A stretch of 32,744 nt of DNA from Rhodobacterales bacterium (GTDB taxonomy: Bacteria > Pseudomonadota > Alphaproteobacteria > Rhodobacterales > Rhodobacteraceae). Both the position numbers and the translations under genes were made by a program. Each line of letters opens with the position of its first letter. Within the stretch, counting starts at the first letter, position 1. The notes beneath the pieces were generated by a model. It had not been told where the DNA came from, did not search any database, and saw nothing but the letters and a program-made list of their open reading frames with translations. Positions 1-14,371 of the stretch are shown here, one piece after another. The stretch is taken from positions 1-32,744 of the forward strand of contig JANYFE010000052.1 in NCBI GenBank assembly GCA_025362795.1, given 5' to 3'.

Positions 1-131
1 CGAACTGAACGACGTGGCGCGACTGATGAACCAGCGCCCCCGAAAAACGCTCGGATGGAGAACGCCCGAGGAAGCCATGGCCGAGGAACTCGCGGCCTTC
101 AGATCAACCGTTGCACTTGAAATTTGAATCC
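1..131 (+). mobile_element. 3' end of an IS30-family insertion sequence
   Basis: The first ~130 bases hold the C-terminus of a transposase and a right terminal inverted repeat. The stop codon at 125-127 lies inside the sequence GTTGCACTTGAAATTTGAAT (110-129), which resembles IS30-family ends I know from alphaproteobacteria. The exact outer edge (about 129-132) is inferred, because no second end or target duplication is in view. The element runs off the left edge of the window and appears to have inserted into the gene that follows. Confidence 0.7.
2..127 (+). CDS. IS30-family transposase, C-terminal fragment (5' end outside window)
   Basis: Reading from base 2, 41 codons are open to TGA at 125-127. 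The peptide contains LMNQRPRKTLGWRTPEEAM, the characteristic C-terminal signature of the DDE transposase of IS30 elements, which excise and insert the element. Only the last ~40 residues of an expected 320-340 are present, so the catalytic residues lie outside the window. The stop codon overlaps the terminal inverted repeat. Family assignment is from this motif alone but the motif is distinctive. Confidence 0.8.
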   Translation, partial: ELNDVARLMNQRPRKTLGWRTPEEAMAEELAAFRSTVALEI

Positions 132-494
132 AAGGTGCTCGTGCGCTTGCCCTATGAAGTTACCAACAGAGATTGGCTAAGACTGGGTAAACGCAACAAC
201 CCTGACTGGCATATGCTGGAGAAACATTGGGAAATTCCTAAAGCATGGTTCAACGATGTCGTGGAAAGAGGGATAGAAAAATTTGGGGCTGTCTACGTGA
301 TCCAACCATTTCGTGAGCAGGAGAAGTGTTCGCCCGCTTGCCAAAATGCCTTGGGTCACGAGTGCCAATGCTCCTGTATGGGTGCACATCATGGAGCAGG
401 AAACGACGGAAGCTGGTTTGAAGTGTCTGAAGCATTTTCAACCCGTTGGGGCAATCTTCATCTTGCCGCACGGTTGATGACGCGCACAAAATAG
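111..494 (+). CDS. Cys-rich conserved hypothetical protein, 5' end replaced by IS30
   Basis: This is an open frame of 127 codons if read from TTG at 111, but that start lies inside the IS30 terminal repeat. The native N-terminus is therefore probably lost and the true coding remnant begins near base 132. The body looks like a real protein: a VRLPYEVTNRDWLRLGKR stretch and an aromatic-rich middle (YVIQPFREQEK) lead into a compact cysteine cluster, CSPACQNALGHECQCSCMG, with C73, C77, C85, C87 and C89 and histidines just after. This suggests a metal-binding knuckle. I recall similar uncharacterised proteins with the C-x-PAC / ECxCSCMGxxHG pattern, but no function. Codon usage is less GC-biased than in the downstream genes, which suggests acquired DNA. 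Whether it is expressed from within the IS is unknown. Confidence 0.55.
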   Translation: MHLKFESKVLVRLPYEVTNRDWLRLGKRNNPDWHMLEKHWEIPKAWFNDVVERGIEKFGAVYVIQPFREQEKCSPACQNALGHECQCSCMGAHHGAGNDGSWFEVSEAFSTRWGNLHLAARLMTRTK

Positions 495-732
495 CTCTGG
501 GCTGTGCTTTCGGCCACCTCAAAATCGGAGCAAAAGCAAAGTGCGCGGGTGGATCGTCAAAAGCACCATGTAGGGTATGCATTTATCACGCATCATTTCT
601 ACCACCTATCCGTGCAATGGCGATCAATAAATGCGGACCTGATCTGCCCGATCAACACTTGGTGTCGGACAAAATGATAGCTTTTTATTTATTTTCAACC
701 TCTTACCCGCCATTTCACGCGTGCAACGCCCC
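495..732. other. Non-coding gap between Cys-rich fragment and carnitine-type operon
   Basis: These 238 bases lie between the IS-truncated gene and the 3' end of the hydratase gene. The stretch is comparatively AT-rich, especially around 675-705. I see no convincing hairpin terminator for the minus-strand operon, no tRNA, and no protein with family-like features. The ORF of about 115 codons crossing it has none of the hallmarks of a gene. Confidence 0.5.
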
Positions 733-1530
733 TCACTTCCCCTTCCACACGGGGTCGCGCTTCTCCGCAAAGGCCCGCGCCCCTTCCAGCTGATCTTCGC
801 TGGAATACAGCTTGTCCACCGTCGGCATCAGCCGCTTGGAAACCCTGTTCAGGGCATCCTGAAACCGCATGTTCTCCGCTTCCCGCACCACTTCCTTGAT
901 CGCGGCATAAACCAGCGGCGGCCCCGATTCCAACAGCCGCGCCAGATCCCAGGCCTTGCCCAGCAACTCCGCAGGCGCGCAAATCTCCTTCACAATCCCC
1001 CAGCGCAACGCCTCCTCTGCGTCAAACCAGCGCCCGGTCAGCAGCAGATCCATTGCCACATGATAAGGAATCCGCTTGGGCAGCCGGATCGACGCCGCAT
1101 CTGCGACCGTCCCTGACCTGATCTCCGGCAAGGCAAAGGTCGCATTCGACGAACACAGGATCAGATCGGCACTCAGCGCGAGTTCCAGCCCGCCGCCACA
1201 GCAGATCCCGTTCACTGCCGCAATGACCGGCTTGTTCAGGTTCGGCAATTCCTGCAACCCGCCAAAGCCGCCAACGCCATAGTCGCCGTCCACCGCATCG
1301 CCACCCGCCGCCGCCTTCAGATCCCAGCCCGGGCAAAAGAATTTTTCGCCCTGCGCCCGCAGGATGCAGACGCGCAGCGAGTCATCATCGCGGAAATCGC
1401 GGAACGCCAGTCCCATCACCCGGCTGGTTTTCAGACTGATCGCATTCGCCTTGGGCGCGTCCAGCGTCACCTCAAGAACAGCACCTTCGCGCCGGGTCTT
1501 CACTGGCCCCTCGGTCCGCATTTCCATCAT
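733..1530 (-). CDS. Enoyl-CoA hydratase/isomerase family protein (CaiD-like, predicted crotonobetainyl-CoA hydratase)
   Basis: This is a crotonase-fold enzyme of 265 residues, a normal length for the family. The oxyanion-hole segments are FCPGWDL (about 65-71) and CCGGGLELAL (about 111-119). Both catalytic glutamates of true hydratases are present, Glu116 in GGGLEL and Glu136 in LPEI, with the usual spacing of 20. It therefore probably hydrates a 2-enoyl-CoA to a 3-hydroxyacyl-CoA in the cytosol. As the last gene of a five-gene carnitine-type operon, the likely reaction is crotonobetainyl-CoA to carnitinyl-CoA, as in E. coli CaiD. This substrate is inferred from context. Its ATG overlaps the stop of the upstream ligase gene (ATGATGG), with a GGAGG five bases before the start, so translation is coupled. 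A general fatty-acid hydratase is the alternative. Confidence 0.88.
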   Translation of the reverse strand: MMEMRTEGPVKTRREGAVLEVTLDAPKANAISLKTSRVMGLAFRDFRDDDSLRVCILRAQGEKFFCPGWDLKAAAGGDAVDGDYGVGGFGGLQELPNLNKPVIAAVNGICCGGGLELALSADLILCSSNATFALPEIRSGTVADAASIRLPKRIPYHVAMDLLLTGRWFDAEEALRWGIVKEICAPAELLGKAWDLARLLESGPPLVYAAIKEVVREAENMRFQDALNRVSKRLMPTVDKLYSSEDQLEGARAFAEKRDPVWKGK

Positions 1531-3515
1531 TCCGCCCTCCTGATCAAAGCATCCACCGCCACCGCACCCTGCGCCCTGACCAGCACCGGATTGATCTCAA
1601 TTTCTTCAAGCGAAACGTCCGACATCATCAGATCGCCAAGCTTCACCGCCATCGCCGCCACCGCCGCCATATCGGCCTTCGCACGCCCGCGATACCCATC
1701 CAGCAAAGGCCACAGCCTGAGCCGCCGCAGCGCCACCAGCACCTCATCCGCTGTGACAGGCAGGATCAAAGTCACCGTGTCCGCCAGAACCTCCGCCGTC
1801 ACACCCCCCATGCCCAAGGTCAGCGACACCCCGTAAACCGGATCGCGCCGCAGGCCGATCAGAACCTCACCGACCGCCCCCGTCACCATCTCTTCAACGA
1901 GATAACCCGTGGCCCCAGCCATCTCTGCCTGACCGTCCAGCGACGACAGCCCCAGCCTGACCGCCCCCGCCTCGGTCTTGTGCGCAAACCCCAACCCCTT
2001 CAAAGCGTAGGGCGGGGTTAACCCCGCCACCGACAACGCATCCAGCGACGCCCCCGACACCCCCTTCGGCACCGCAACTCCGGCCTCCGCCAACAGCCCC
2101 TTTGCCGCCGCCTCCGACAGCATCACCGTCCCCCGCTCGCCCACCACAGCCACCGGTCGCCACCCCGCAACCCCCGCCGCCATCTGCGCCGCCTTGATCG
2201 CCGCCAGCCCGGTTTCCAACCCCAGCAAGGCACAAACTCCCTGCCCCATCATCGCCGCCACCCGCGCCTCGCCAAAGTTCTCGACCATCGAGGCGACCGG
2301 AAAGGCGATCTTCCCCGTCACCCGCTGCGCCGCCACGATCGCGTCCAAGGCCGGCTGATACGAGGCATCCGAACAGCGATCGGTGCGCGGCGTGTCGATG
2401 ATGTAGATGCCAGCGTCATAAGCCTCCAGCATCGCGGTAAAGACTTCGGTGGTCTTCGGCCCGTCCCCCCAGATGAACGTGTGATAGTCCAACGGGTTGG
2501 CGATGGTCGGAATAGACCCCAGCACGTTGAACAGCCGGTCATGCGTCGCCTGCGGCACCGGGGGAAATTCAATCCCCAACGGTGCGGCCATGTCCGCGAC
2601 CAACCCCGCCTCGCCGCCCGAACAGGACAGCGAACAAATCCTCCGCCCGATCTGCGGCCCGTGAACGTGGAAAATCTTCAGCGTCTCGACCAGTTCCGAC
2701 GGCGTATTGACCTCCGCCACCCCGATCTGCCGCAGGAACGCGGATGATGCCGCCCCGCCCCCCGCCAGCGAAGCGGTATGCGACGCCGCCGCCACCCGGC
2801 TCAACTCGGTCTTGCCCGATTTGATACAGACGACCCCCTTGCCCGCCGCCCGCGCCGCCTGCGCCAAGGCGGCAAAGCCCGCGGCATCATCAATCCCCTC
2901 AATGTACAGCCCCAGCGCCGTCACGCGGGAATCATCCAGCAATGCCCCCGCCAGGTCCGCCAGACCCACGACCGCCGCATTGCCCACACAGGCGACATAG
3001 GCCACCGGCAAGGCGCGCTTTTGCATGCCAAGGTTAATGACGATGTTGGAGGACTGACTGACCAGCGCCACGCCGCGGTCCACCCGCACCCCGCCGTGCT
3101 GATCGGGCCAAAGCAGAGCGCCATCCAGATAGTTGATCACCCCATAGCAATTCGGCCCCAGAATCGGCATGTCCCCCGCCGCCGCCACCAACCGGGCCTG
3201 CAGTTCCGGCTCGCCCGACTCGGTCCAGCCAGAGGCGAAACAGACCGCCCCCCCCGCGCCCAGCGCCGCCAGTTCGCGCACCACATCAATCGTGGCATGC
3301 CGGTTGACCCCAATGAAGGTCGCATCCGGCACCCCCGGCAAATCGGCAAGCGTCGGATAGGCCTTCAACCCACCAATCTCGCTGCGGCTCGGATGCACCG
3401 GCCAGACCGGCCCGGCAAAGCCCATCTTGTGACATTGCTCGATCACATTCAGCGCCCAGCCTGCGCCCAGAACGGCAATGCTTCTGGGCCGCAACAGCCT
3501 GTTGAGGTCTTTCAA
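1527..3515 (-). CDS. NDP-forming acyl-CoA ligase (acetate--CoA ligase family), predicted to activate gamma-butyrobetaine/crotonobetaine/carnitine
   Basis: This is a single-chain ADP-forming acyl-CoA synthetase of 662 residues with both halves fused. The N-terminal CoA-binding domain starts RSIAVLGAG (11-19). The ligase region has GPNCYG (120-125) and SHTASLAG, whose His246 is the family's phospho-histidine. The C-terminal ATP-grasp domain covers roughly 450-660. The frame opens further upstream (to 3605), but I chose TTG at 3513-3515: GGAGG sits six bases before it and the conserved sequence begins right there (KDLNRLLRPRSIAVLGAG). The family makes an acyl-CoA from acid, CoA and ATP with release of ADP and phosphate. 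Next to CaiA- and CaiD-like genes it could replace the AMP-forming CaiC-type ligase. The substrate is inferred. A non-coding gap of 302 bases separates it from the preceding operon genes. Confidence 0.85.
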   Translation of the reverse strand: MKDLNRLLRPRSIAVLGAGWALNVIEQCHKMGFAGPVWPVHPSRSEIGGLKAYPTLADLPGVPDATFIGVNRHATIDVVRELAALGAGGAVCFASGWTESGEPELQARLVAAAGDMPILGPNCYGVINYLDGALLWPDQHGGVRVDRGVALVSQSSNIVINLGMQKRALPVAYVACVGNAAVVGLADLAGALLDDSRVTALGLYIEGIDDAAGFAALAQAARAAGKGVVCIKSGKTELSRVAAASHTASLAGGGAASSAFLRQIGVAEVNTPSELVETLKIFHVHGPQIGRRICSLSCSGGEAGLVADMAAPLGIEFPPVPQATHDRLFNVLGSIPTIANPLDYHTFIWGDGPKTTEVFTAMLEAYDAGIYIIDTPRTDRCSDASYQPALDAIVAAQRVTGKIAFPVASMVENFGEARVAAMMGQGVCALLGLETGLAAIKAAQMAAGVAGWRPVAVVGERGTVMLSEAAAKGLLAEAGVAVPKGVSGASLDALSVAGLTPPYALKGLGFAHKTEAGAVRLGLSSLDGQAEMAGATGYLVEEMVTGAVGEVLIGLRRDPVYGVSLTLGMGGVTAEVLADTVTLILPVTADEVLVALRRLRLWPLLDGYRGRAKADMAAVAAMAVKLGDLMMSDVSLEEIEINPVLVRAQGAVAVDALIRRAE

Positions 3516-3562
3516 TTGCGACCTCCGGTCATGAGGCCAGCGCCGGGGGCTGTCTGCCCCCC

Positions 3563-3603
3563 GCGTCCATCGGTTCTCGGACCGATGGCGCACCGATGGA
3601 CGC
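3563..3603. repeat. Nested inverted repeat with two competing stems
   Basis: GCGTCCATCGGT (3563-3574) pairs perfectly with ACCGATGGACGC (3592-3603). Its inner part CCATCGGT (3567-3574) can instead pair with ACCGATGG (3581-3588) around a six-base loop. The two stems are mutually exclusive. No U-run follows on either strand, so a simple terminator role is not obvious. Confidence 0.7.
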
Positions 3604-3610
3604 ACCCCGA

Positions 3611-3634
3611 GGATATTTGTGGACAGATGATGGG
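3611..3634 (+). repeat. Interspersed intergenic repeat, copy 1 (GGATATTT...GACAGATGATG)
   Basis: GGATATTTGTGGACAGATGA, continuing TGGG, matches two other copies in this window (3753-3776 and 8521-8543, both minus orientation) with one to three mismatches. Copies lie beside GC-rich hairpins and outside genes. Similar sequences are common between genes in Rhodobacterales as I recall, but I cannot count them here. Confidence 0.6.
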
Positions 3635-3752
3635 GGGGAACAGGCTCCCTGCCCCGACGAGTGAGCGAGGCAGGGTATCACCCGTCACCGTCATCGGGAT
3701 CCCTCCCTGTCCGGCTTTTTCAGTCTGGCGAATCAAAGTTAACATCCCGTTA

Positions 3753-3776
3753 CCATCATCTGTCTCTAAATATCCC
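3753..3776 (-). repeat. Interspersed intergenic repeat, copy 2
   Basis: On the minus strand this reads GGGATATTTAGAGACAGATG then ATGG, and it follows the GC hairpin downstream of the acyl-CoA dehydrogenase gene. About 20 of 23 bases match copy 1. Confidence 0.6.
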
Positions 3777-3785
3777 ACGGGGGGT

Positions 3786-3808
3786 CCGGGGGGTGTGAAA
3801 CCCCCCGG
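3786..3808 (-). terminator. GC hairpin downstream of the acyl-CoA dehydrogenase gene
   Basis: CCGGGGGG (3786-3793) pairs with CCCCCCGG (3801-3808) around a seven-base loop, nine bases past the stop codon at 3818-3820. There is no clear U-run, so it may be an imperfect terminator, a processing stem or an mRNA-stabilising hairpin. Confidence 0.45.
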
Positions 3809-3817
3809 CTCTTTGGG

Positions 3818-4981
3818 TCACGCCCCCAAGGGCCGCAGCAATTCGCGGCTGATGATATGCCGCTGAATCTCGCTCGTCCCTTCCCAGATCCGCTCGACCC
3901 TTGCGTCGCGCCAGATCCGTTCCAGCGGCAATTCGTCCATCAGCCCCATGCCGCCGTGAATCTGGATCGCCTCATCCGCGACCATCGCCAGCATTTCGGT
4001 CGCCTTCAGCTTGGCCATCGACATATCGGCTTCCGTCACAGTGCCCGCGTCATACTTCCACGCCGCCTCCCGCGTCAGCAGTTCCGCTGCCTTCAACTCC
4101 ATCGCCATATCGGCCAGCTTGAAGGATATCCCCTGAAACTTGCCGATCTGCTGGCCGAACTGCTTGCGCTCCGCCGCGTAACTCAACGCATGCCCCAAAG
4201 CCCGCTCCGCCCGGCCCAGACAGGTTGACGCAACCTGCAACCGGGTTGCGCCCAGCCAAGAATTCGCCACCTCGAATCCTTTGTGAACCTCGCCCAATAT
4301 CTGCCGCTTGTTCAACCGGCAGTCGTCGAATTCCAGCACCGAATTGGTGTAACCGCGGTGCGACACGTTGCGATACCCGTCGCGCACCGTGAAACCCTTG
4401 GTGCCCTTGTCCACGAAAAACGCCGTGATCTTCTTCTTCGGCCCGCGCGGTGTGGCCTCTTCCCCGCTGGCCACAAAGACAACGGCAAAGCCCGCGATAT
4501 CGGCATGGCTGATGAAATGCTTGGTGCCGTTCAGCACCCAGTCATCGCCGTCTTGCCGTGCCGACGCCTTCATGCCGCGCAAATCCGACCCCGCACCGGG
4601 TTCCGTCATCGCCATGCAATCCCAGGTTTCCCCCCGGATGCAGGGTATCAGATATTGTTCGCGCTGTTCGGCATTGCCCGCCAGCAAGATGTTCGACGGC
4701 CGCGCCACGCAGGTCCAGTGCAGCGCGTAATTCGCCCGCCCCAGCTCCTTTTCATACAACAGCCACGACAGTGTATCCAACCCGGCCCCACCAACCTCCA
4801 CCGGCATGTTGGCCGCATAAAGCCCCGCCGCCATGGCCTTCTTCTGGATCTCGCGGATCAGTTCCAGCGGCAGATGCCCGGTCCGTTCCACCATAGCCTC
4901 GTGCGGATACAGTTCCGCCTCGACAAACGCCCGGGTAGTCTCGACGATCATCGCCTGTTCTTCGCTCAAGCCGAAATCCAT
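3818..4981 (-). CDS. Acyl-CoA dehydrogenase (CaiA-like; predicted gamma-butyrobetainyl-CoA dehydrogenase)
   Basis: This is an FAD-dependent acyl-CoA dehydrogenase of 387 residues, the standard family length. The flavin/substrate segment MAMTEPGAGSD is present (about 124-134). The C-terminal catalytic base is Glu367 in RIWEGTSEIQR, the position used by medium-chain type enzymes. The frame extends 37 codons upstream, but the ATG at 4979-4981 has AAGGAGG before it and starts the canonical MDFGLSEEQ. That ATG overlaps the stop of the dehydrogenase-thioesterase gene by one base (TGATG), so the two are translationally coupled. In context it probably oxidises gamma-butyrobetainyl-CoA to crotonobetainyl-CoA, passing electrons to ETF. 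This substrate is inferred; the family call is secure. Confidence 0.88.
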   Translation of the reverse strand: MDFGLSEEQAMIVETTRAFVEAELYPHEAMVERTGHLPLELIREIQKKAMAAGLYAANMPVEVGGAGLDTLSWLLYEKELGRANYALHWTCVARPSNILLAGNAEQREQYLIPCIRGETWDCMAMTEPGAGSDLRGMKASARQDGDDWVLNGTKHFISHADIAGFAVVFVASGEEATPRGPKKKITAFFVDKGTKGFTVRDGYRNVSHRGYTNSVLEFDDCRLNKRQILGEVHKGFEVANSWLGATRLQVASTCLGRAERALGHALSYAAERKQFGQQIGKFQGISFKLADMAMELKAAELLTREAAWKYDAGTVTEADMSMAKLKATEMLAMVADEAIQIHGGMGLMDELPLERIWRDARVERIWEGTSEIQRHIISRELLRPLGA

Positions 4982-6435
4982 CACGCCCTCCTTTGCCCGG
5001 TGAACCGGCCCGCCGCCTCGGGCTTCGGCAAAGCCGCATGTGCCACCGCTATCGGCCCCAGCTTCGCCAGAACCTCCGGTGCCGCCGCACAAGCCTTCCC
5101 CGCCTTCATGTCAACATGCAGGCACATCTGCTCCACCGTCGCCACCGGCACCCCGTCCTTGAGGATGCGCACAAACGTGTGCAAACGCTTTTCATCCGAC
5201 GCCAGCACCTGCAACGTGCCGGTCAAACGGTCCCCCAGCTTGGCCTCGCCCAGATGCAGGATATGCGTCTCGGCGGTGTAATAGCTGTGCCCCGCCGCGA
5301 CATACTCCATCCCCGCCCCGATCAGCCGCAGGAAGGCGTCGCAAGTCTCGGACGCCGCAAACAGATAGCGGCTTTCGGTCATGTGGCCGTTGTAATCAAT
5401 CCACCCCGGCAGCACCTGCATCTGCGCCAGCACCAGGGGCGCACCCGATGGCTCCACCTCAAACGCAGCCGCCCGCCGCGCATCATGCTCGCGCAGAACC
5501 TTCCCCGCACCCCAGTTCCGCTCTTTCAGACTGCGCAGGAACCCCACAAGGTTCTGGTCGCGAATACGCTCCAGTTCCCGAATGCCATACATGCCGCTTT
5601 GCGCATCAGACTGCGACGCCACCAGATCGACCAGGTCCTCGTTGAACTCCGGCACGTCCATCAGCTTGGTCCAAGGCCATTTCAGCGCCGGGCCAAACTG
5701 GGCCATGAAATGCCGCATCCCGGCCTCGCCACCCGCAATCCGGTAGGTTTCGAACAACCCCATCTGACCCCAGCGCAGGCCAAAGCCCATGCGGATCGCC
5801 TCGTCGATTTCTTCGGTCGTGGCCACACCATCGACCAGCATCCACAACGCCTCGCGCCACACCGCCTCCAGAAACCGGTTGCCGATGAACGCGTCAATCT
5901 CCTTGCGGATCACCAGCGGGAACATCCCGATGTCCTTCATGATCTGCACGGTCTTTTCCACCGTCTCGGCAGAGTTCGCAGGCGACCCCGAAACCTCTGA
6001 CAGTGGCAAAAGGTACACCGGGTTGAACGGATGGGCGACGATGATGTTATGGGGTGCCGCCGAGCCTTCCTGCAAATCGCTGGCCTTGAACCCCGACGTA
6101 GACGACCCGATCAGCACATCCGGATTGGCCTGCTGCAACTGCGCATAAATCTTCTTCTTCAACTCGATGCGCTCGGAAACGCTTTCCTGCACATATTCCG
6201 CCCCCTCGACCGCCTCGCCAATGGTGCCGTGAAAGGTCAATTTGCCCTCCGGCGGCATCGGCACATCGGAAAGCGCAGGCAAGGCCAGCCGTGCATTGCC
6301 CAACACCGCCGCAATCTTGCGCTCTGCCTCCGGATCAGGATCAAACACCCCCACATCCCAGCCGTTGAGCAAGAACCGCGCCGCCCAACCGCCACCAATA
6401 ACCCCGCCACCAATGATCGCTGCCTTGCGTGTCAT
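4981..6435 (-). CDS. lcdH: Carnitine 3-dehydrogenase fused to a hotdog thioesterase (betainyl-CoA thioesterase)
   Basis: This two-domain protein has 484 residues. Residues 1 to about 320 form a 3-hydroxyacyl-CoA-dehydrogenase-like unit with a Rossmann loop GGGVIGGG (9-16) and the catalytic-His segment HPFNP (135-139). This matches L-carnitine dehydrogenase, which makes 3-dehydrocarnitine with NAD+. Residues ~335-455 are a 4HBT-type hotdog domain with DYNGHM (347-352), the usual catalytic Asp motif. Such fusions are known in rhizobial carnitine degradation, where the thioesterase half releases glycine betaine from betainyl-CoA. The frame opens upstream to 6489, but the ATG at 6433-6435 precedes the Rossmann strand directly and has GAGGGAAA ahead of it. 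The upstream neighbour is the BKACE gene, which supplies betainyl-CoA. The function is well supported by fold and neighbourhood. Confidence 0.85.
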   Translation of the reverse strand: MTRKAAIIGGGVIGGGWAARFLLNGWDVGVFDPDPEAERKIAAVLGNARLALPALSDVPMPPEGKLTFHGTIGEAVEGAEYVQESVSERIELKKKIYAQLQQANPDVLIGSSTSGFKASDLQEGSAAPHNIIVAHPFNPVYLLPLSEVSGSPANSAETVEKTVQIMKDIGMFPLVIRKEIDAFIGNRFLEAVWREALWMLVDGVATTEEIDEAIRMGFGLRWGQMGLFETYRIAGGEAGMRHFMAQFGPALKWPWTKLMDVPEFNEDLVDLVASQSDAQSGMYGIRELERIRDQNLVGFLRSLKERNWGAGKVLREHDARRAAAFEVEPSGAPLVLAQMQVLPGWIDYNGHMTESRYLFAASETCDAFLRLIGAGMEYVAAGHSYYTAETHILHLGEAKLGDRLTGTLQVLASDEKRLHTFVRILKDGVPVATVEQMCLHVDMKAGKACAAAPEVLAKLGPIAVAHAALPKPEAAGRFTGQRRA

Positions 6436-6484
6436 GTCCGCTTTCCCTCGTCGTGGGACAGTCTCCTGCCCCCTTTCATTTTGG

Positions 6485-6506
6485 TTCAAATATCCCCGCC
6501 GGAGGC
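6485..6506 (-). repeat. Intergenic motif GCCTCCGGCGGGGATATTTGAA
   Basis: On the minus strand the gap between the BKACE and dehydrogenase genes carries GCCTCCGGCGGGGATATTTG then AA. A near-identical version (GCCTCCGGCGGGAGTATTTT) occurs at 10615-10640, also between two same-strand genes. Both share the GGR(A)TATTT core with the longer repeat at 3611, 3753 and 8521. Confidence 0.55.
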
Positions 6507-6540
6507 GCAGCGTTCCACCCGCGCTCTGGTGTGGCGTCTG

Positions 6541-7455
6541 TCACTTCCCCACCGGCGCCCGCTTCTCCAGCTGCAGCTTCGCCCGCACTTCGGCCGGGGT
6601 AATCACCCGCGCCCCCAGATTGCTGATGATCGTCACCGCCCTCTCCACCAGTTGCGCGTTGGTCGCAAGCACCCCCTTGTCCAGCCACAGATTATCCTCC
6701 AGCCCGACCCGCACATTGCCGCCCGCCAGAACCGAGGCCGCCACATAGGGCATTTCGTTACGCCCGAGCGCGAATGCCGACCAGAACCAGTGCTTCGGCA
6801 CGTTGTTGACCATCGCCATGAAGGTGTTCAGGTCATCCGGCGCGCCCCATGGCACGCCCATGCACAGTTGCACCAGCACCGGATCGGGGATGATCCCCTC
6901 ATCCGCCAGTGCTTTGGCCAGCCACAGATGCCCGGTATCAAACGCCTCGATCTCGATCCGCACACCCGATGCCACCATCCGCCGCGCCATGTCGCGCAGC
7001 ATCCCCGGCGTGTTGACCATCACATAATCGGCCTCGTTGAAGTTCATCGTACCGCAGTCGAGCGTGCAGATCTCCGGCCGGCATTCGACCACATGCGCCA
7101 CCCGTTCCTCCGCCCCCGCCATGTCAGACTTCGGCCCCATCTGACCCATCTTTTCGGTGCCATCAAACAGCAGATCGCCGCCCATCCCTGCCGTCAGGTT
7201 CAGCACAACATCCGTGCCCGAATCCCTGATCCGCTCCGTAACCTCACGGTACAGCGCCAGATCGCGCGAGGGCTTACCGGTTTCCGGATCGCGCACATGG
7301 CAATGCACCACCGCCGCCCCCGCCTTGGCCGCCGCAATCGCACTGTCCGCAATCTGCAAAGGGCTGCGCGGCACATGTGGGCTGCGGTCCTGCGTCCCCC
7401 CCGATCCCGTCACGGCACAAGTGATGAAAACTTCGCGGTTCATGGTCAACGGCAT
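6541..7455 (-). CDS. BKACE-family beta-keto acid cleavage enzyme (predicted 3-dehydrocarnitine:acetyl-CoA trimethylamine-acetyl transferase)
   Basis: This is a DUF849/BKACE protein of 304 residues, the family's normal size. The zinc-binding pair His51 and His53 is in VHCHVRDPETG, and the late acidic ligand is Glu253 in VGLEDN. These enzymes condense a beta-keto acid with acetyl-CoA and split it. For 3-dehydrocarnitine the products are betainyl-CoA and acetoacetate, as for Pseudomonas CdhB. Substrate choice here rests on the adjacent carnitine dehydrogenase-thioesterase and CdhR-like regulator. The ATG at 7453-7455 is chosen because GGAGG lies eight bases before it; an in-frame start 27 bases upstream (7482) would leave that site inside the gene. 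It is the first gene of the operon, divergent from the regulator. Confidence 0.85.
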   Translation of the reverse strand: MPLTMNREVFITCAVTGSGGTQDRSPHVPRSPLQIADSAIAAAKAGAAVVHCHVRDPETGKPSRDLALYREVTERIRDSGTDVVLNLTAGMGGDLLFDGTEKMGQMGPKSDMAGAEERVAHVVECRPEICTLDCGTMNFNEADYVMVNTPGMLRDMARRMVASGVRIEIEAFDTGHLWLAKALADEGIIPDPVLVQLCMGVPWGAPDDLNTFMAMVNNVPKHWFWSAFALGRNEMPYVAASVLAGGNVRVGLEDNLWLDKGVLATNAQLVERAVTIISNLGARVITPAEVRAKLQLEKRAPVGK

Positions 7456-7528
7456 CGGGAATCCTCCAAACGTTCGCGGCAACCATAACCATCTTGCACG
7501 CAGGCGCTTGACGATTTACGAAATCCGC
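7456..7528. promoter_or_regulatory. Divergent regulatory region between BKACE operon and AraC-type regulator
   Basis: These 73 bases separate two divergent starts and must hold the operon promoter and probably the regulator's binding site. I see no clean -35/-10 pair. A TTGACG at 7508-7513 lies too close to the regulator's ATG to serve it. I could not define a credible AraC-type direct repeat by eye. Confidence 0.4.
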
Positions 7529-8491
7529 ATGGCACAAACCGCAACAATCTTCGCACCCTCGCGGCAACCCCTGACCCTCGCCCTGCTGGTCCTGCCGCAG
7601 TCCTCGATCCTGGAAGTCGCCTCCACCCTTGATCCCATGCGCTCCGCCAATCGCCACCTTGGGTCCGACGCCTACCGCTGGCGCGTCGTCACCCCCGATG
7701 GCAAACCAGCCCCCCTGACCTGCGGCATCGAACTTCCCACCAGCGGCCCGCTCACCTCTGCCGAAGGTGCCGACGCCCTCATCATCATCGCCGGCTTCCG
7801 CCAGTCCGAAGTCGCGACCCAACCCCTGATCCGCGATCTTGCCCGCATGGCCCCCCGCTTCACAGCCATCGGCGGCATCGACGCCGGGGCTTGGGTGCTC
7901 GCCCGCGCAGGGCTGCTCAATGGCCACAAAGCCACCGTCCATTGGGAGGATCTCGAAGATTTCACCACCGCCCATCCCGAAATCGAAATCCTGCCGGACC
8001 GCTATGTTATCGACCGCACCCGCTTTACCGCCAGCGGAGCTGCCCCCGCCTGCGACCTGATGCTGCACCTGATCCGCGCCCGCCACGGCCCCGCGCTCGC
8101 CCTGCAAGTCGCGGCCAGTTTCCTGACCACCCCGCGCGAAGGCTCCGACCCGCAGATTGCAGCCCAGCAAAACCGCCGCCTCGACCCCCGCGTGGCCCAG
8201 GCCATCGCCCGCATGGAATCCCACCTCGACCAACCCGAACCCACAGCCCAGATCGCCCAGCACATCGGCCTCTCCCCCCGCCGCCTCGAAACCCTGTTCC
8301 GGCAAGGCGTCGCCATGACCCCCGCCGCCTATGCCCTGTCGCTGCGCCTGCAAGCCGCAAGACGCCTCATCACCGACACAAGACACCCGCTCGCTGAAGT
8401 CGCCCTGCGCACCGGCTTCTCCTCCCCCTCCACCCTGTCCAGAGCCTTCCGCCACCACTTCGGCCACCCCCCCACCGCCCTGCGGCAATAG
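7529..8491 (+). CDS. GATase1-like/AraC-family transcriptional regulator (CdhR-like)
   Basis: This protein has 320 residues. The N-terminal ~190 resemble the DJ-1/PfpI (class I glutamine amidotransferase-like) sensor domain found in CdhR and GbdR. The C-terminal ~100 form an AraC helix-turn-helix pair: the first helix pair lies around IAQHIGLSPRRLETLFRQ and the second ends with VALRTGFSSPSTLSRAFR. CdhR of Pseudomonas activates carnitine catabolism genes, and here the gene is divergent from the carnitine-type operon, which fits a local activator. The start at ATG 7529 gives the usual short N-terminus but has no clear Shine-Dalgarno; an in-frame TTG at 7508 is an alternative. It is convergent with the oligopeptidase gene. 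The effector (carnitine or a pathway intermediate) is inferred. Confidence 0.85.
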   Translation: MAQTATIFAPSRQPLTLALLVLPQSSILEVASTLDPMRSANRHLGSDAYRWRVVTPDGKPAPLTCGIELPTSGPLTSAEGADALIIIAGFRQSEVATQPLIRDLARMAPRFTAIGGIDAGAWVLARAGLLNGHKATVHWEDLEDFTTAHPEIEILPDRYVIDRTRFTASGAAPACDLMLHLIRARHGPALALQVAASFLTTPREGSDPQIAAQQNRRLDPRVAQAIARMESHLDQPEPTAQIAQHIGLSPRRLETLFRQGVAMTPAAYALSLRLQAARRLITDTRHPLAEVALRTGFSSPSTLSRAFRHHFGHPPTALRQ

Positions 8492-8516
8492 AAAAAGGCG
8501 GCCCCTCAAGACCGCC
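8492..8516 (-). terminator. Rho-independent-type terminator after the M3 oligopeptidase gene
   Basis: On the minus strand GGCGG-TCTTGAGGGG-CCGCC is followed directly by TTTTT (8496-8492). It sits in the convergent gap, immediately after the regulator's stop and about 65 bases past the peptidase stop. The stem is only five base pairs, so strength is uncertain. Confidence 0.5.
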
Positions 8517-8520
8517 CACA

Positions 8521-8565
8521 CATCATCTGTCCATAAATATCCCGGGGCCCGGGGCAGCGCCCCGG
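8521..8565 (-). repeat. Interspersed repeat copy 3 with adjoining GC hairpin
   Basis: On the minus strand a seven-base-pair hairpin, CCGGGGC-GCT-GCCCCGG (8565-8549), is followed by GGGATATTTATGGACAGATG then ATG (8543-8521). The tail differs from copy 1 (3611-3634) at a single base. It lies 16 bases past the oligopeptidase stop, so it may act with the stem at 8492-8516 in 3'-end formation. Confidence 0.6.
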
Positions 8566-8580
8566 ACGCCAGCCAAGGGC

Positions 8581-10605
8581 CTAAACGTTCTCCACCAACC
8601 CCCGCCCCTTCAACAGCGGCTCCACCCCCGGCATCCGCCCCCGGAACCTTGTGTACAGAACCTCCGCCTCCTCCGACCCACCTGCCGACAGGATGAACTT
8701 CTCCAACCGCGCCGCCACCTCCGGGTCAAACGCGTCCCCCGCCTCCTCAAAGGCCGCGAACGCATCCGCATCCATCACTTCCGACCACATGTAAGAATAA
8801 TAGCCGCTGGAATAGCCGTCGCCCGAGAAGATATGCGCGAAATGCGGCGTCGCATGCCGCATCCGGATCGCCCGCGGCATCCCCAACCCCTCCAGCACCT
8901 CCGCCTGTTTCTGCATCGGATCGGCGGGCGCGTCGCCCTCGTGGAACGCCAGATCGACCAAAGCCGAACTGATAAACTCCACCGTCGCAAATCCCTGATC
9001 ATAGGTCCCCGCCGCCAACAGCCGCTTCAGCATGTCCGCAGGCATCGGTGCACGGGTTTCATAATGCCGGGCATGCTGCTCCAAAACCTCCGGCACCTCC
9101 ATCCAGTGCTCATAAAGCTGCGACGGCAATTCGACAAAATCCCGCGCCACGTTGGTCCCGGAAATAAACCCGTAAGTCACATCCGACAGCATCTGGTGCA
9201 GCGCATGGCCAAACTCATGAAACAGCGTCCGCGCATCGTCATAAGACAGCAGGCTCGGCTCCCCCTTGGCAAAGTTGCACACATTCACCACCACCGGGCG
9301 CTGATCACCGCCCAGCTTGCGCTGCCCGCGCATGTCCGAACACCACGCACCTGACCGCTTCGATCCCCGCGCAAAATAATCGCCGATGAACACCGCCACA
9401 TGTCCCCCCCCCCGACTGACCTCCCACGCCCGGCAATCCGGATGATACAGCGGCACGTCCAGCACCTTGAACTCCAGCCCGAACAACCGCGTGGCGCAAT
9501 CGAACATCGCCCCCAGCATCGCCTCCAGCCCCAGATAAGGCTTCAACACCGCCTCATCCAGATCATGTTCGGCGCGGCGCCGTTTCTCCGAATAATACCG
9601 CCAGTCCCAAGCCTCCAGCGGCCCGGCAATCCCATCCGCCCGCAGCATCCCCTCCAGCACCGCCGCATCCGCCAGCGCCACCCGCTTTGCCGGTTCCCAC
9701 ACCCTCATCAGCAACCCGCGCACCGCCGCGGGCGTCTTCGCCATCTCTGGCTCCAGCTTGTAATCGGCAAAGCTGGCGTAGCCCAACAGCTTCGCCCGCT
9801 CTTCCCGCAGCTTCAAAATCTCCGCCGCCACCCCGCGATTGTCCGTCGCGCCACCATTCGCGCCACGCAAGCCCCAAGCCTCATAGGCCTTCTGGCGCAG
9901 CCCGCGCTTCGGTGAAAACTGCAAGAACGGCACGATCAGCGACCGCGACAGTGTCACCACCGGCCCCCCCGCCTGCTTCTCCTCCCCCGCCGCCCGCGCC
10001 GAGGCGACCACGAACTCCGGCAACCCCTCCAGATCGCCCTCGTTCAAGGCCATGAACCACGCCCGCTCGTCCGCCAGCAGATTCTGGCTGAACGTGGTCC
10101 CCAGCACCGCCAACCGCGACTTCACCGCCGTCAACCGCGCCGCCGCCTCGCCTTCCAGCAACGCCCCCGACCGCACGAACATCCGCCGGTACAAATCCAA
10201 CACCCGCCCCTGCTCATGCGTCAGCCCCAAAGCCTCCCGCCCCTGCCACAACGCCTCCACCTTGCCGAACAGCACGCGATTGTTCGTCACCTCAGACGCA
10301 AAGGCCGACAGTTTCGGCGCCAGATCACTCTGCAACGCCTCCCGTGCCGGGGTGCTGTCCGCGCCGACAAGGTTGTAAAACACCCCCGCCACCCGGCTCA
10401 AAGCGTCCTCCGACAATTCCAGCGCCTCGATCACATTCGCAAACGTCGGAACCTCATCAGACGCAGCAATCGCCGCCACATTCGCCCGCGCCTCGACCAG
10501 CGCCGCGTCAAATGCCGGCCCAAAATCCTCATCCCGGACTGCCCCAAACGGCGGCAACCCAAACGCATCTCCCCACGCCGCCATCAAAACATTCGCCATA
10601 GCCAT
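8581..10605 (-). CDS. M3-family zinc metallopeptidase (oligopeptidase A / dipeptidyl carboxypeptidase type)
   Basis: This enzyme has 674 residues, in line with PrlC/OpdA and Dcp (about 680). The zinc site is LFHEFGHALH with His463, Glu464 and His467, and the downstream Glu ligand is expected in the FVELPSQLYEHW segment. There is no signal peptide, so it is cytosolic and probably degrades short peptides. PrlC and Dcp cannot be separated by eye. The ATG at 10603-10605 has AAGGTAAGG just upstream. A run of ten C (9404-9413, G on the coding strand) lies within codons for SRGGGH, where slippage would shift the frame. Downstream is the convergent regulator; upstream the gap to the ABC permease gene is 37 bases and carries an intergenic repeat. 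Confidence 0.9.
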   Translation of the reverse strand: MAMANVLMAAWGDAFGLPPFGAVRDEDFGPAFDAALVEARANVAAIAASDEVPTFANVIEALELSEDALSRVAGVFYNLVGADSTPAREALQSDLAPKLSAFASEVTNNRVLFGKVEALWQGREALGLTHEQGRVLDLYRRMFVRSGALLEGEAAARLTAVKSRLAVLGTTFSQNLLADERAWFMALNEGDLEGLPEFVVASARAAGEEKQAGGPVVTLSRSLIVPFLQFSPKRGLRQKAYEAWGLRGANGGATDNRGVAAEILKLREERAKLLGYASFADYKLEPEMAKTPAAVRGLLMRVWEPAKRVALADAAVLEGMLRADGIAGPLEAWDWRYYSEKRRRAEHDLDEAVLKPYLGLEAMLGAMFDCATRLFGLEFKVLDVPLYHPDCRAWEVSRGGGHVAVFIGDYFARGSKRSGAWCSDMRGQRKLGGDQRPVVVNVCNFAKGEPSLLSYDDARTLFHEFGHALHQMLSDVTYGFISGTNVARDFVELPSQLYEHWMEVPEVLEQHARHYETRAPMPADMLKRLLAAGTYDQGFATVEFISSALVDLAFHEGDAPADPMQKQAEVLEGLGMPRAIRMRHATPHFAHIFSGDGYSSGYYSYMWSEVMDADAFAAFEEAGDAFDPEVAARLEKFILSAGGSEEAEVLYTRFRGRMPGVEPLLKGRGLVENV

Positions 10606-10642: not shown

Positions 10643-11428
10643 TTATCTGTCTTTCGCCCGCAACCGCGTTTCCACCCTTCGCAGCACCAGACTTAGTGAG
10701 ATCGTCATCGTCAGATAGACCAGCGCCACGACGTTATAAGTCTCGAAGTAACGAAAGTTGCCAGCCGCCGTCACCTTGCCCAGCTGGGTGATATCCGTCA
10801 CCCCCAGCACCGACACCAAGGACGAATCCTTCACCATCGCCACGAAATCATTGCCAAGTGGCGGCAATATCGTCCGGAACGCCTGCGGAAACACCACAAA
10901 GCGGAACCCCTGCCACCCTGACAGACCCAGCGCCATCGCCGCCTCGACCTGGCCCTTGTCCACCGACAAAAGCCCCGCCCGGAACACTTCCGCCAGAAAC
11001 GCCGAATAGGCCAGCGTCAGGGCAATCACCGCCCGCGCAATCAACGGAAAATCCCGCGTCAGCCACGGCTGCACCCCGATCCAGCCCCCGACCCAGTTCA
11101 CCGCAAGAACCAGCGCCGGGGCCGCCGCGAATGCCACGTACAAGAGCAGCACGATGATCGGCACCCCGCGCACCACCTCGATGTAAAACCGCGCCACCTG
11201 CCGCAAGACCGCAAACCGTGACAACCCCGCCAGCGCCAGGCCCAGCCCGATCACACAGGCCGACCCATAGGCCACCAACGTCACCGCAATGGTGATCCAG
11301 ATCCCCTTCGCCAAGGTGCGCAGCACATCCGCGTAAATCTGGTTCGCCCAGACCTCATAAAACAACCACAGCCCGATGCCGACCAGCGCCACGAGCCACC
11401 ACGGAAAATCCGTCTTTTCATCTTTCAT
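10643..11428 (-). CDS. Polar amino-acid ABC transporter permease (HisM/GltJ type)
   Basis: This membrane protein has 261 residues. It has an N-terminal hydrophobic helix (WWLVALVGIGLWLFYEVW), four or more further segments, and the EAA loop EAAMALGLSGWQGFRFVVFP that contacts the ATPase. The pattern fits the His/Glu/Gln/Arg/opine permease family of the inner membrane. The paired binding protein is encoded directly upstream on the same strand, 37 bases away across a terminator-like hairpin. No ATPase gene or second permease is present in the window, so the ATPase must come from elsewhere, or the permease may act as a homodimer. The substrate is unknown; polar amino acids or opine-like compounds are typical. 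Confidence 0.88.
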   Translation of the reverse strand: MKDEKTDFPWWLVALVGIGLWLFYEVWANQIYADVLRTLAKGIWITIAVTLVAYGSACVIGLGLALAGLSRFAVLRQVARFYIEVVRGVPIIVLLLYVAFAAAPALVLAVNWVGGWIGVQPWLTRDFPLIARAVIALTLAYSAFLAEVFRAGLLSVDKGQVEAAMALGLSGWQGFRFVVFPQAFRTILPPLGNDFVAMVKDSSLVSVLGVTDITQLGKVTAAGNFRYFETYNVVALVYLTMTISLSLVLRRVETRLRAKDR

Positions 11429-11431
11429 CGG

Positions 11432-11457
11432 AAAAAGGCCCCGGATCCACCGGGGCC
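11432..11457 (-). terminator. Intercistronic terminator-like hairpin between binding protein and permease genes
   Basis: GGCCCCGG (11437-11444) pairs with CCGGGGCC (11450-11457) around ATCCA, and on the minus strand the stem is followed by TTTTT (11436-11432). It is the best terminator-shaped element in the window. Placed after the binding-protein gene and before the permease gene, it would allow more binding protein than permease to be made. Confidence 0.7.
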
Positions 11458-11465
11458 GCCCAGTC

Positions 11466-12251
11466 TTACGAGCCCATCTTGTAATCGAGGAACCACTTCT
11501 TGTTCAGCCCGTCAAACGTCCCATCCGCCTTCAACGCCGCGATCCCGGCGTTGATCGGTGCCACCAAAGCCGAGCCCTTGGGGAAGATGAACCCGAAATC
11601 CTCGGTGCCCAGCTTCTCGCCGACGATCTTCAACTTGCCGCCCGACGCATCGACATAGCCCTTGCCCGCCGTGCCATCGGTCAGCACCAGATCGACGTCG
11701 CCCGACTTCAGCGCCTCAACCGTGGCGCCAAACGTCTCGAACAGCTTGACGCGCGGATTGGCCTCGTTGCCGTCCAGCACGTCATAGATCACCGTGTAAA
11801 ACGGCGTCGTCCCCGGCTGCGCCGCGGCCAGCAGCGCGGTATCCGCCGCAAAACTCTTGGCATCGGTGAACCGGCTTTCATCGCCGCGCACCAGCATCAC
11901 CATTTCGCTGCGCATATAGGGATCGCTGAAATCGACCTTCTCTTTGCGGTCATCCTTGATCGTGATCCCGGTCATCCCGATGTCATACTGGCCTTCCGAC
12001 ACCGCCGGTATCATCGCATCCCAAGAGATATTTTCGTATTTTATCTTGAAATTCAGCCGCTTGGCCATCTCTGTCATCGCGTCATATTCCCAGCCCACCG
12101 CCGCGCCCGACTTGTCCAGAAACTGCAACGGCGGATAGGCGTTCTCGGTGACAATGGTAATCTCCTTGCCCGCAAGGTCCGGCAAGGCATCAGCCAACAC
12201 GGCACCCGGCAGCATCAAGGCAAGCCCGGCAAAAGCAGCAGTGATTTTCAT
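11466..12251 (-). CDS. Periplasmic amino-acid-binding protein of an ABC transporter
   Basis: This protein has 261 residues. It has a clear secretion signal (MKITAAFAGLALMLPGAVLA, probable cut after residue 20 before DALPDL) and a bacterial extracellular solute-binding protein family 3 fold. Typical stretches are YPPLQFLDKSGAAVGWEYD near the N-terminus, QYDIGMTGITIKDDRKEKVDFSDPY in the first lobe and a C-terminal LNKKWF. It binds a polar amino acid or related ligand in the periplasm and delivers it to the permease encoded next. The specificity cannot be read from the sequence. It is the first gene of the pair. The M3 peptidase downstream might supply related substrates, but that is only proximity. 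Confidence 0.88.
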   Translation of the reverse strand: MKITAAFAGLALMLPGAVLADALPDLAGKEITIVTENAYPPLQFLDKSGAAVGWEYDAMTEMAKRLNFKIKYENISWDAMIPAVSEGQYDIGMTGITIKDDRKEKVDFSDPYMRSEMVMLVRGDESRFTDAKSFAADTALLAAAQPGTTPFYTVIYDVLDGNEANPRVKLFETFGATVEALKSGDVDLVLTDGTAGKGYVDASGGKLKIVGEKLGTEDFGFIFPKGSALVAPINAGIAALKADGTFDGLNKKWFLDYKMGS

Positions 12252-12351: not shown

Positions 12352-13770
12352 TCACACCGCCAGATGCAACCCCGCCCCCGGCGCCGAGATCAGCGCCATG
12401 CCGCCATCGCCCTGCTTGATCCCGATCGTTCCGGCCCCGATGCCCTTGAACGTCACCGATCCCCCGCCCATCCGCACCGTCGTGCCATCCGCGCCGAACT
12501 CCACCGCATAGGGCCCAGCGTCATCGCCGATCTGCAACACCACCTGCGCACCCGCCGCGACATTCACCGTGTCATTGCCGTCGCCCGCGCCATAGACCAG
12601 CGACACCGTGCCACCCGCCACGTTCACCGTGTCATCCCCGGTGCCGCCCGCCACCGCCAGAACCGACGCCGTCCGGACCGAGATCACATCATTCCCCGCC
12701 CCGCCGTCAACATCGGCATAGGCCTTGGCCGCCGCCCCGACAGACGCGCTGACCTCGCCGTTCGTGGCCACCACCGGGCTTTGGGCAAACCACGCCTCCG
12801 CATTGCTGACCCCGGCAAGTCCGCCCCCGGCATCAACCGCAATTGCATCATTCCCATCGCCGCCGGTCACGCCTGTCACCACCTGCGCCTTGATCGCCAC
12901 CGCGTCATCGCCACTTCCGGAATTGATATTGCTGACAATCCGGCCGACCAAAGCCACCGCATCACGGCCAGCCCCGGTCGAGATGTCGTTGATCAGATAA
13001 GCCGCAATCGACAGCGCATCATTGCCCGCAACCACCGGCGCCGCCGATACCACCGGCGCCGCCGCCGCTCCGCTGGTATCCACCACCGGTCCCGCGGCCG
13101 TGCCGCCTGAAACAATGTCTGCCGCCAAACTATCCCCGGCCAGGGTGTCACCTGAAACCGCATCGCCCGCCATACCAACCCCAACCAATGTATCGCCCGC
13201 CAAAGTGTCCGTGGAAACCGGCGGCACAGGCGGCGGTGCGCTCGGAGGCCCCGGTGGAGGCTCCGACGACGGCCCTGCAAGTGGCGGCGGCCCGGCCTCG
13301 CCCATATGGATCCCCGACACAAACGTGCCGACAATCGACAGCGAATCCGACCCGCCTCCGGTATAGATCCCCGTCACCCGGCCACCCTGCAACTGCACAA
13401 TGTCATTGCCCGCCCCGGTCGTCACATCGGAAATCTCATCGGCCTGAATGACCAGCCGGTCGCCGGTCTGCCCCGCCCCGCTGGTCGCGGCGACCGCAAT
13501 CGCCCCGGATCCCCCCGTCACGATGGCCGCATAACTCGCCCCCGCCGCCTCCGGGTTGCCGTCCGTCAGGCGCTGCAACATCGCCGCCAGTTTTTGCATC
13601 CGGTTCTGCAACCGCGTATCCGGCCCGCCATCCCCGCCGCCATTGTCCTGCACCCGGTCGCGCCCGTGGTGCCGCCCGACACATGCGCCGGCCTGCTGCG
13701 TCGGGCCGCCGCCACCCGTCTGCCGCAAAATTTCCAATGCACGCGTCTGAAAAGAGGTGCCAATCTGCAT
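12352..13770 (-). CDS. RTX-like repeat protein of unknown function
   Basis: This protein of 472 residues has no recognisable enzyme domain. Eight Gly/Asp-rich cores of the form GxGxDxVxV occur: TGAGNDIVQL (118), TGGGSDSLSI (137), TGAGRDAVAL (265), SGSGDDAVAI (284), TGGDGNDAIAV (302), GGAGNDVISV (356), GGTGDDTVNV (375) and GAGDGNDTVNV (394). They are about 19-20 residues apart within each block. They recall the nonapeptide beta-roll of calcium-binding RTX proteins but are degenerate. A Pro-rich linker (161-186) and an AGDTL-type repeat stretch (187-220) separate two blocks. There is no N-terminal signal, so type I export by the C-terminus is possible but no exporter gene is nearby. The ATG at 13770 has GGAGC ten bases before it. 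No function is assigned. Confidence 0.75.
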   Translation of the reverse strand: MQIGTSFQTRALEILRQTGGGGPTQQAGACVGRHHGRDRVQDNGGGDGGPDTRLQNRMQKLAAMLQRLTDGNPEAAGASYAAIVTGGSGAIAVAATSGAGQTGDRLVIQADEISDVTTGAGNDIVQLQGGRVTGIYTGGGSDSLSIVGTFVSGIHMGEAGPPPLAGPSSEPPPGPPSAPPPVPPVSTDTLAGDTLVGVGMAGDAVSGDTLAGDSLAADIVSGGTAAGPVVDTSGAAAAPVVSAAPVVAGNDALSIAAYLINDISTGAGRDAVALVGRIVSNINSGSGDDAVAIKAQVVTGVTGGDGNDAIAVDAGGGLAGVSNAEAWFAQSPVVATNGEVSASVGAAAKAYADVDGGAGNDVISVRTASVLAVAGGTGDDTVNVAGGTVSLVYGAGDGNDTVNVAAGAQVVLQIGDDAGPYAVEFGADGTTVRMGGGSVTFKGIGAGTIGIKQGDGGMALISAPGAGLHLAV

Positions 13771-13983
13771 GTTTCTGCTCCGATTTGCCCAAATCCAGGG
13801 GCAATCCTGCCAGATAATCTTGCAGCAATTCTTGACGACCCCCTGCCTGCCGCCAAAAATCTCCTGCCGATTTTCGACAAATCCAACGGCCTGCGCTTCG
13901 CCGCACAGTTACCCGGCCCAAACCCGCAATTGCCCCAGACCCCCGAAACCGCCATTTTGGCCCCATCACGACAGGAGCGTCCG
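13771..13983. other. Divergent intergenic region, repeat-protein gene / dioxygenase remnant
   Basis: These 213 bases lie between two divergent starts. I see a possible -35 (TTGACG near 13832) on the plus strand without a good -10, and no RNA gene. The plus-strand gene has AGGAG nine bases before its ATG. Confidence 0.4.
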
Positions 13984-14352: not shown

Positions 14353-14371
14353 GGCGGGGTCTTTCCCCGCC
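14353..14371. terminator. Hairpin between convergent dioxygenase remnant and SnoaL-like gene
   Basis: GGCGGGG (14353-14359) pairs perfectly with CCCCGCC (14365-14371) around TCTTT, beginning immediately after the TAG of the dioxygenase remnant and ending ten bases from the stop of the convergent gene. There is no U-run on either side. Confidence 0.5.

Follow-up and report, generated by a model that had tools for sequence, protein, structure and literature searches.

Carnitine-making genes are said to adjoin carnitine-degrading genes in Sinorhizobium meliloti, where the enzymes have reportedly been characterised in vitro (Bazire et al. 2019, J Bacteriol 201:e00772-18). The locus discussed here, which probably joins genes of the same two kinds, is a block of six genes at positions 733-8491 of a 32,744-nucleotide stretch from a Rhodobacterales bacterium (GCA_025362795.1, contig JANYFE010000052.1, positions 1 to 32,744; hereafter the window), which runs from the first base of its contig (C60) onward in a 3.84-Mb genome. 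For S. meliloti, BcoAB is described as the γ-butyrobetaine:coenzyme A (CoA) ligase (PMC8364193), and SM2011_c01638 as a carnitine dehydrogenase that also takes betainyl-CoA to glycine betaine (PMC12482172). In the account given of strain HK4, which is placed near Rhizobium meliloti and is of a type between Agrobacterium and Rhizobium, butyrobetaine becomes carnitine along a route like that of fatty acid breakdown, and carnitine supports growth (PMC2131755).

The block is very probably a catabolic cluster that would lead from γ-butyrobetaine and carnitine to glycine betaine. All five minus-strand enzyme genes and the divergent plus-strand regulator listed by an earlier sequence-only reading of this DNA are present, transcribed in the order BKACE, fusion of carnitine dehydrogenase (CDH) and thioesterase, acyl-CoA dehydrogenase, NDP-forming ligase and CaiD-like hydratase. 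The last three are called the trio below, and the first two the carnitine half. The features are as follows:

733 to 1530, minus strand: CaiD-like enoyl-CoA hydratase (proposed crotonobetainyl-CoA hydratase), with CaiD as the best NCBIfam model
1527 to 3515, minus strand: fused NDP-forming acyl-CoA ligase (proposed γ-butyrobetaine/crotonobetaine:CoA ligase), with CoA_binding_2, Succ_CoA_lig and ATP-grasp_5 domains
3516 to 3817, no strand: gap of 302 bases between dehydrogenase and ligase, with an inverted repeat pair within and no recognised gene
3818 to 4981, minus strand: acyl-CoA dehydrogenase (proposed γ-butyrobetainyl-CoA dehydrogenase), with N-terminal, middle and C-terminal acyl-CoA dehydrogenase domains
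4981 to 6435, minus strand: carnitine 3-dehydrogenase with a 4HBT-type thioesterase (proposed betainyl-CoA thioesterase), with 3HCDH_N, 3HCDH and 4HBT_2 domains
6541 to 7455, minus strand: BKACE (proposed 3-dehydrocarnitine:acetyl-CoA cleavage enzyme), Pfam PF05853, 335.3 bits
7456 to 7528, no strand: divergent intergenic region of 73 bases between BKACE and regulator, by the refined starts
7529 to 8491, plus strand: AraC-family regulator with a DJ-1/PfpI domain (GlxA type; GbdR/CdhR-like), from domain and NCBIfam searches

The gene starts were refined by where homologues begin and by ribosome-binding sites, which gave TTG at 3515 for the ligase, behind GGAGGT and in a frame open to 3605, and positions 6435 for CDH (frame open to 6489), 7455 for BKACE and 7529 for the regulator. 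Two pairs of genes overlap: the CDH stop and the dehydrogenase start have one base in common (4981), and the ligase stop and the hydratase start four (1527-1530). The window holds 732 bases between the hydratase end and the contig start, where the further downstream flank is cut off. A sigma-70-type promoter search of positions 1-8700 found none, and Rfam at gathering thresholds gave no RNA family in the window.

From the gene content, gene order, residues and co-occurrence we infer the substrates, the direction of flow, the hydrolysis of carnitinyl-CoA and the inducer. With ATP, the ligase would convert γ-butyrobetaine to γ-butyrobetainyl-CoA, and probably crotonobetaine to crotonobetainyl-CoA as well. 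The dehydrogenase would oxidise γ-butyrobetainyl-CoA to crotonobetainyl-CoA, with the electrons passing to electron transfer flavoprotein (ETF) and then to ETF-quinone oxidoreductase (ETF-QO), and the CaiD-like hydratase would add water to give L-carnitinyl-CoA. A thioesterase would release L-carnitine, possibly the one fused to CDH, which is the nearest candidate among the six genes. Carnitine dehydrogenase would next produce 3-dehydrocarnitine, BKACE would turn this and acetyl-CoA into betainyl-CoA and acetoacetate, and the fused thioesterase would hydrolyse betainyl-CoA to glycine betaine, while the divergent regulator would probably turn the block on in response to a betaine. The sequence-only reading had proposed this same end in glycine betaine plus acetoacetate, which is very likely right, being well supported by co-occurrence and active-site residues; its term "self-contained" was too strong, because the six genes include neither an importer nor a separate carnitinyl-CoA thioesterase.

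The fusion of carnitine dehydrogenase with a thioesterase, also claimed beforehand, is borne out by a score above the NCBIfam equivalog cut-off (NF005716, 741.7 versus 592 bits) and by the 4HBT_2 thioesterase domain at the C-terminus. The His of its HPFNP motif and the thioesterase Asp are kept in 98 of 99 homologues each (one gap), and the BKACE His in 98 of 98, all three of which we take to be catalytic positions. Two Glu of the hydratase, presumably catalytic in the CaiD/enoyl-CoA hydratase family, are kept in all 145 homologues. The regulator is indeed divergent and of the AraC/GlxA type; its best NCBIfam model, GbdR NF052371, scores 190.3 bits, below the 480-bit cut-off, so the label "CdhR-like" given to it expresses resemblance rather than a model match.

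It is unlikely that the trio makes carnitine as an osmoprotectant, with the carnitine genes serving only to clear the surplus. The butyrobetaine-to-carnitine half of S. meliloti is reportedly called anabolic (Bazire et al. 2019), which would favour such a role, but in the window both halves lie on one strand under one divergent regulator, and the overlap of the CDH and dehydrogenase genes ties the expression of the two halves together.

The catabolic reading draws on the distribution of these genes. A scan of GTDB genomes gave at least 522 confirmed relatives of the ligase, and the loci of the best 80 were taken; their titles are mostly those of Rhodobacteraceae/Paracoccaceae genera, and some say only "Alphaproteobacteria" or "bacterium". 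The sequence-only reading had suggested a search for conserved co-occurrence, and among these best 80 of 522 the window's arrangement of all six genes, divergent regulator included, recurs in 54 loci. The remaining 26 comprise 16 that are cut by a contig end, eight with the five enzymes and no regulator hit (E 1e-10) and two with only the trio out of the five enzymes; among the 64 loci whose sequence spans the block, 62 have the five enzymes. The two trio-only loci are from Defluviimonas (L055 and L063); their trio stands behind a different regulator, similar in general type and 34% identical, and in both genomes the CDH fusion lies with BKACE at another place.

Furthermore, an even sample of the family, 295 genomes from 294 genera, was searched with the ligase and the CDH fusion, at limits of E 1e-120 that were set after the lists had been inspected, and all 212 matching genomes were used. 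Ligase and fusion occur together in 173 genomes, the ligase only in 6, the fusion only in 42 and neither in 74 (Fisher's p 8e-32, only a guide, as the genomes are related). The earlier reading had considered that homologous loci might pair the CoA trio with unrelated pathways; what was found is the fusion in 173 of 179 ligase-positive genomes, so that the ligase practically implies the carnitine half, although the trio often lies away from the carnitine genes. That the carnitine half is able to stand alone is expected if the trio feeds into it. Throughout this large family of alphaproteobacteria, butyrobetaine use would thus accompany carnitine use.

The physical linkage of the two halves is variable. 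In the 103 genomes with both places recorded, ligase and fusion lie at most 10 kb apart in 37 and not in 66, some of the latter being contig breaks (e.g., G275 and G224); the count used 135 ligase places, and at least 15 others were inadvertently missed (G214, G117, G041, G055, G230, G122, G131, G104, G064, G192, G166, G093, G234, G174 and G281). The 156 ligase loci fetched have CDH upstream in 91 cases, downstream in 11 and not within 9 kb in 35, and in 19 it cannot be told; 148 of the 156 have a CaiD-like hydratase gene. The unlinked loci were picked by hand (20 of the 59 with ligase identity below 52%, plus 20 stretches from 17 further genomes), so that shares of arrangements are not frequencies. 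Of 20 unlinked loci, 18 have the full trio, one runs off its contig and L106 is without hydratase; a GlxA-type regulator hit lies beside the trio in 11, and in L100 BKACE adjoins the trio. On the 91-row ligase tree the linked or separate state changes at least 16 times, a count from a partly hand-picked sample in which gains and losses are not distinguishable; this tree and the dehydrogenase tree are quick trees, with the long rows L170-L173 unsure. Such repeated joining or parting is good evidence that the two halves work together.

Across the class, 25 of 289 genomes match the ligase at E 1e-100, four of them in the family. The 20 loci obtained from 19 of the 21 class genomes outside the family include seven with all five enzyme kinds (L154, L155, L161, L162, L164, L165 and the rearranged L173) and two (L167 and L168) with the ligase alone of the six genes. 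In L164 and L173 the CDH match spans only residues 18-315 and 4-269, respectively, and the fused thioesterase seems to be missing there.

The closest solved relative of the window ligase is the dimethylsulfoniopropionate (DMSP) lyase DddX (7cm9, 200.1 bits). In DddX, as described in PMC8163506, His292 is phosphorylated, docking puts Trp391 and Phe435 at the sulfonium group, and the elimination base is probably Glu432, whose alanine mutant is inactive. Three of 136 ligase homologues were dropped as not full length or with a stop, and in the remaining 133 the counterparts of His292 and Trp391 (H241 and W344, numbered from base 3500) are kept without exception. By MAFFT, the residue aligned with Phe435 is likewise aromatic in all 133 (Y 65, W 44, F 24), with Y381 in the window. 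At the Glu432 column the window has Asp (MAFFT) or Cys (phmmer), and Glu is found there in 1 of 133 homologues and within three columns in 13. The window ligase is thus like DddX in ligase family, phospho-His and the aromatic pair for the onium group, and unlike it in missing the lyase base; DddX was rejected as its identity because Glu432 is absent, the two alignments placing different residues at that position. An onium group that is bound but not eliminated is what a butyrobetaine:CoA ligase should look like, and we infer that this pattern, an onium-binding aromatic pair with no lyase base, is as expected of a betaine-CoA ligase.

The same residues bear on two further alternatives. That the trio acts on some other quaternary or acyl substrate, which merely feeds carnitine metabolism, is quite improbable: its frequent separate location, with a GlxA-type regulator beside it in 11 of the 20 loci mentioned, and the two types of dehydrogenase treated below would suit this explanation, but the aromatic pair in 133 of 133 ligases and the tie between the presence of the trio and the CDH fusion speak against it. 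A DddX-type lyase, with a trio that handles DMSP and acryloyl-CoA rather than butyrobetaine, is highly improbable, even with DddX as the best solved relative and acryloyl-CoA reductase as the top NCBIfam model of the dehydrogenase (283.8 bits, cut-off 640), since the lyase base is missing from the window and from nearly all homologues, the ligase tracks the CDH fusion across genomes, and the CaiD-like hydratase accompanies the ligase in nearly all ligase loci. Least likely of all is a trio that works backwards, like the cai system of E. coli, from carnitine to γ-butyrobetaine as an electron sink. The CaiA-like dehydrogenase (crotonobetainyl-CoA dehydrogenase model, 176.3 bits, cut-off 540) and CaiD-like hydratase (300.7 bits, cut-off 500) would suit it, but the cluster proteins contain neither a CoA transferase III domain nor an AMP-forming ligase domain, the genome has no match to BCCT (the CaiT family, PF02028) and does have one ETF-QO, and the carnitine dehydrogenase of the same block would compete.

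Several observations weigh against the preferred reading, a catabolic route from γ-butyrobetaine and carnitine to glycine betaine. One half is found without the other in the 42 genomes with the carnitine half and no ligase and in the 6 with the ligase and no fusion. In the phmmer alignment the window has Ala rather than Tyr opposite Phe435 of DddX, and the best model of the hydratase, CaiD NF002936, is matched only below its cut-off. The orthology of the window ligase with BcoAB is drawn through other Sinorhizobium records, and the dehydrogenases of two of these strains, Sinorhizobium sp. B11 and K101, have Asp at the catalytic-base position, unlike the Glu of the window.

This last difference proved to be widespread. 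The base position was defined as the Glu of the motif EGTSEIQR, which we take to be the catalytic base of acyl-CoA dehydrogenase, in an alignment with the short-chain acyl-CoA dehydrogenase 2vig; in the window it is Glu, residue 367. When 17 of the 156 loci were excluded for want of a near-complete dehydrogenase, the remaining 139 homologues had Glu in 86 and Asp in 53. Glu occurs in all 73 usable loci from the best 80 of 522, and Asp in all five annotated plasmid loci (Sinorhizobium, Rhizobium, Neorhizobium, Alloyangia and Sulfitobacter), in 40 of the 46 fetched family loci (Glu in 6) and in 8 fetched class loci (Glu in 7). The residue is not counted here as a defining feature of this kind of cluster, as both types fill the same slot.

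The dehydrogenase and ligase histories, as read from the trees, disagree. On the dehydrogenase tree the family's Glu-type rows group together (20 rows, support 100), whereas holding the 16 Glu-type rows together on a 39-row ligase tree was rejected (log-likelihood 550 lower, approximately unbiased test p 3e-59), and the dehydrogenase type changes at least six times on that tree; the 39 rows were chosen by hand, and the Glu-type group was named with the dehydrogenase tree already known. Mixed pairings occur in both senses: L107, L109 and L111 combine a near dehydrogenase of the Glu type with a far ligase, and L127, L130, L131, L132 and L150 an Asp-type dehydrogenase with a nearer ligase, while in L129 and L140 the ligase looks foreign, by identity only, beside a near dehydrogenase and hydratase. 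Together, the tree conflict and these pairings make the block look like a mosaic whose parts were exchanged in place.

One explanation, to which somewhat less than an even chance may be given, is that the slot is filled by two dehydrogenase types, with Glu or Asp as base, that the dehydrogenase and ligase genes have been swapped in place several times, and that the two types either catalyse the same γ-butyrobetainyl-CoA step with a differently placed base or act on two related substrates. The Glu/Asp state changes at least four times on the dehydrogenase tree, so that the residue is no perfect mark of a subfamily, which weighs against a deep functional meaning. Among the literature matches listed, nothing appeared on Asp as the dehydrogenase base in connection with butyrobetaine. 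The difference offers a natural experiment on how far the base of an acyl-CoA dehydrogenase can vary.

The genome around the block contains further candidate genes of betaine metabolism: six MttB-family proteins and two sarcosine oxidase alpha subunits over the cut-off, which would act on the betaine, and two OpuAC-type binding proteins, which would serve its uptake. For Ruegeria pomeroyi, PMC12478193 describes more CdhABC in N-osmolyte-grown cells and proposes that an MttB-family (pfam06253) enzyme demethylates glycine betaine. A second BKACE of the window's own genome (L174, contig C28:18000-30770) exceeds the cut-off for 3,5-dioxohexanoate:acetyl-CoA acetone transferase (490.7 versus 430 bits); with an MttB-family protein, an old yellow enzyme (OYE)-type oxidoreductase and an ABC ATPase nearby, this may be another betaine locus. 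Among the best 80 loci, a choline-sulfatase is present in the fetched flank of 29 (L025: 861.1 versus a 433.45-bit cut-off) and a choline-dehydrogenase-like GMC oxidoreductase in that of 38 (539.7 bits, cut-off 605), which suggests that the block often lies inside a wider glycine-betaine-making stretch; in L025 these genes are at 14146-15651 (minus strand) and 12448-14061 (plus strand), respectively. In the window, a polar-amino-acid-type ABC permease and binding protein at 10643-12251 lie beyond the peptidase gene next to the regulator, in a synteny common to many relatives; they are a possible importer.

The gaps within the cluster are also variable. A dispersed repeat, GGATATTTNNNGACAGATGA, is located at 3611-3630 (plus strand), 3756-3775 (minus strand) and 8523-8542 (minus strand) of the window and has 62 sites in the genome with at most two mismatches, against 0 for a reversed control pattern. 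It follows a G+C-rich hairpin in several copies, and its first two window copies form the inverted pair of the dehydrogenase-ligase gap, with a like position in several relatives. A small Rdx (SelW family) gene occupies this gap in 16 fetched loci by tblastn, and clustering of open reading frames shows it in 13 of the 91 loci whose carnitine genes lie upstream (carriers include L007, L008, L024 and L025); no homologue was found in the 3516-3817 gap of the window. In 34 of the same 91 loci the cluster includes a short-chain dehydrogenase gene, mostly in the CDH-dehydrogenase gap (L007, L008 and others), which has no hit in the window and for which a D-carnitine dehydrogenase is one guess. In four loci (L027, L037, L074 and L085) the BKACE-CDH gap contains an HD-domain protein with a weak relationship to oxygenases of the PhnZ/MIOX type.

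Compared with known systems, the block is like the E. coli cai operon in its CaiA-like and CaiD-like steps, and unlike it in having no counterparts of CaiB, CaiC and CaiT and in the opposite proposed direction. The bbu cluster, which takes γ-butyrobetaine to trimethylamine, is described as having class III CoA transferases next to a flavoprotein of the lyase type (PMC8364193), and no class III CoA transferase domain was found among the window cluster proteins. Pseudomonas carnitine catabolism has the carnitine dehydrogenase and BKACE steps in common with the window, by the account in PMC12482172; there DhcAB handles betainyl-CoA, whereas the window has a dehydrogenase-thioesterase fusion and, in addition, the CoA trio. 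HK4 is likened to the window by the description of its route, not by sequence.

The nearest systems are rhizobial. Sinorhizobium sp. B11 and K101 have enzymes of the same five kinds, arranged as in the window (regulator, BKACE, CDH fusion, dehydrogenase, ligase, hydratase), at identities to the window of 48-49% for the ligase, 64-66% for the dehydrogenase and 71% for BKACE, and differ in the Asp noted above; the B11 locus runs on into an ABC importer, whereas the window contig breaks off 732 bases past the hydratase. The same cluster is present in Rhizobium sp. Pop5, Neorhizobium and Sulfitobacter, and Alloyangia has a second gene order. For the ligases named "acetate--CoA ligase family protein" in rhizobial and roseobacter plasmid records, this comparison points to a likely substrate. 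The combination of the two halves, which the sequence-only reading took to be new, is already known, as the same cluster exists in Sinorhizobium and Rhizobium; what is new here is the Glu/Asp difference together with the conflicting gene histories, and the exchange of the dehydrogenase is the part worth following.

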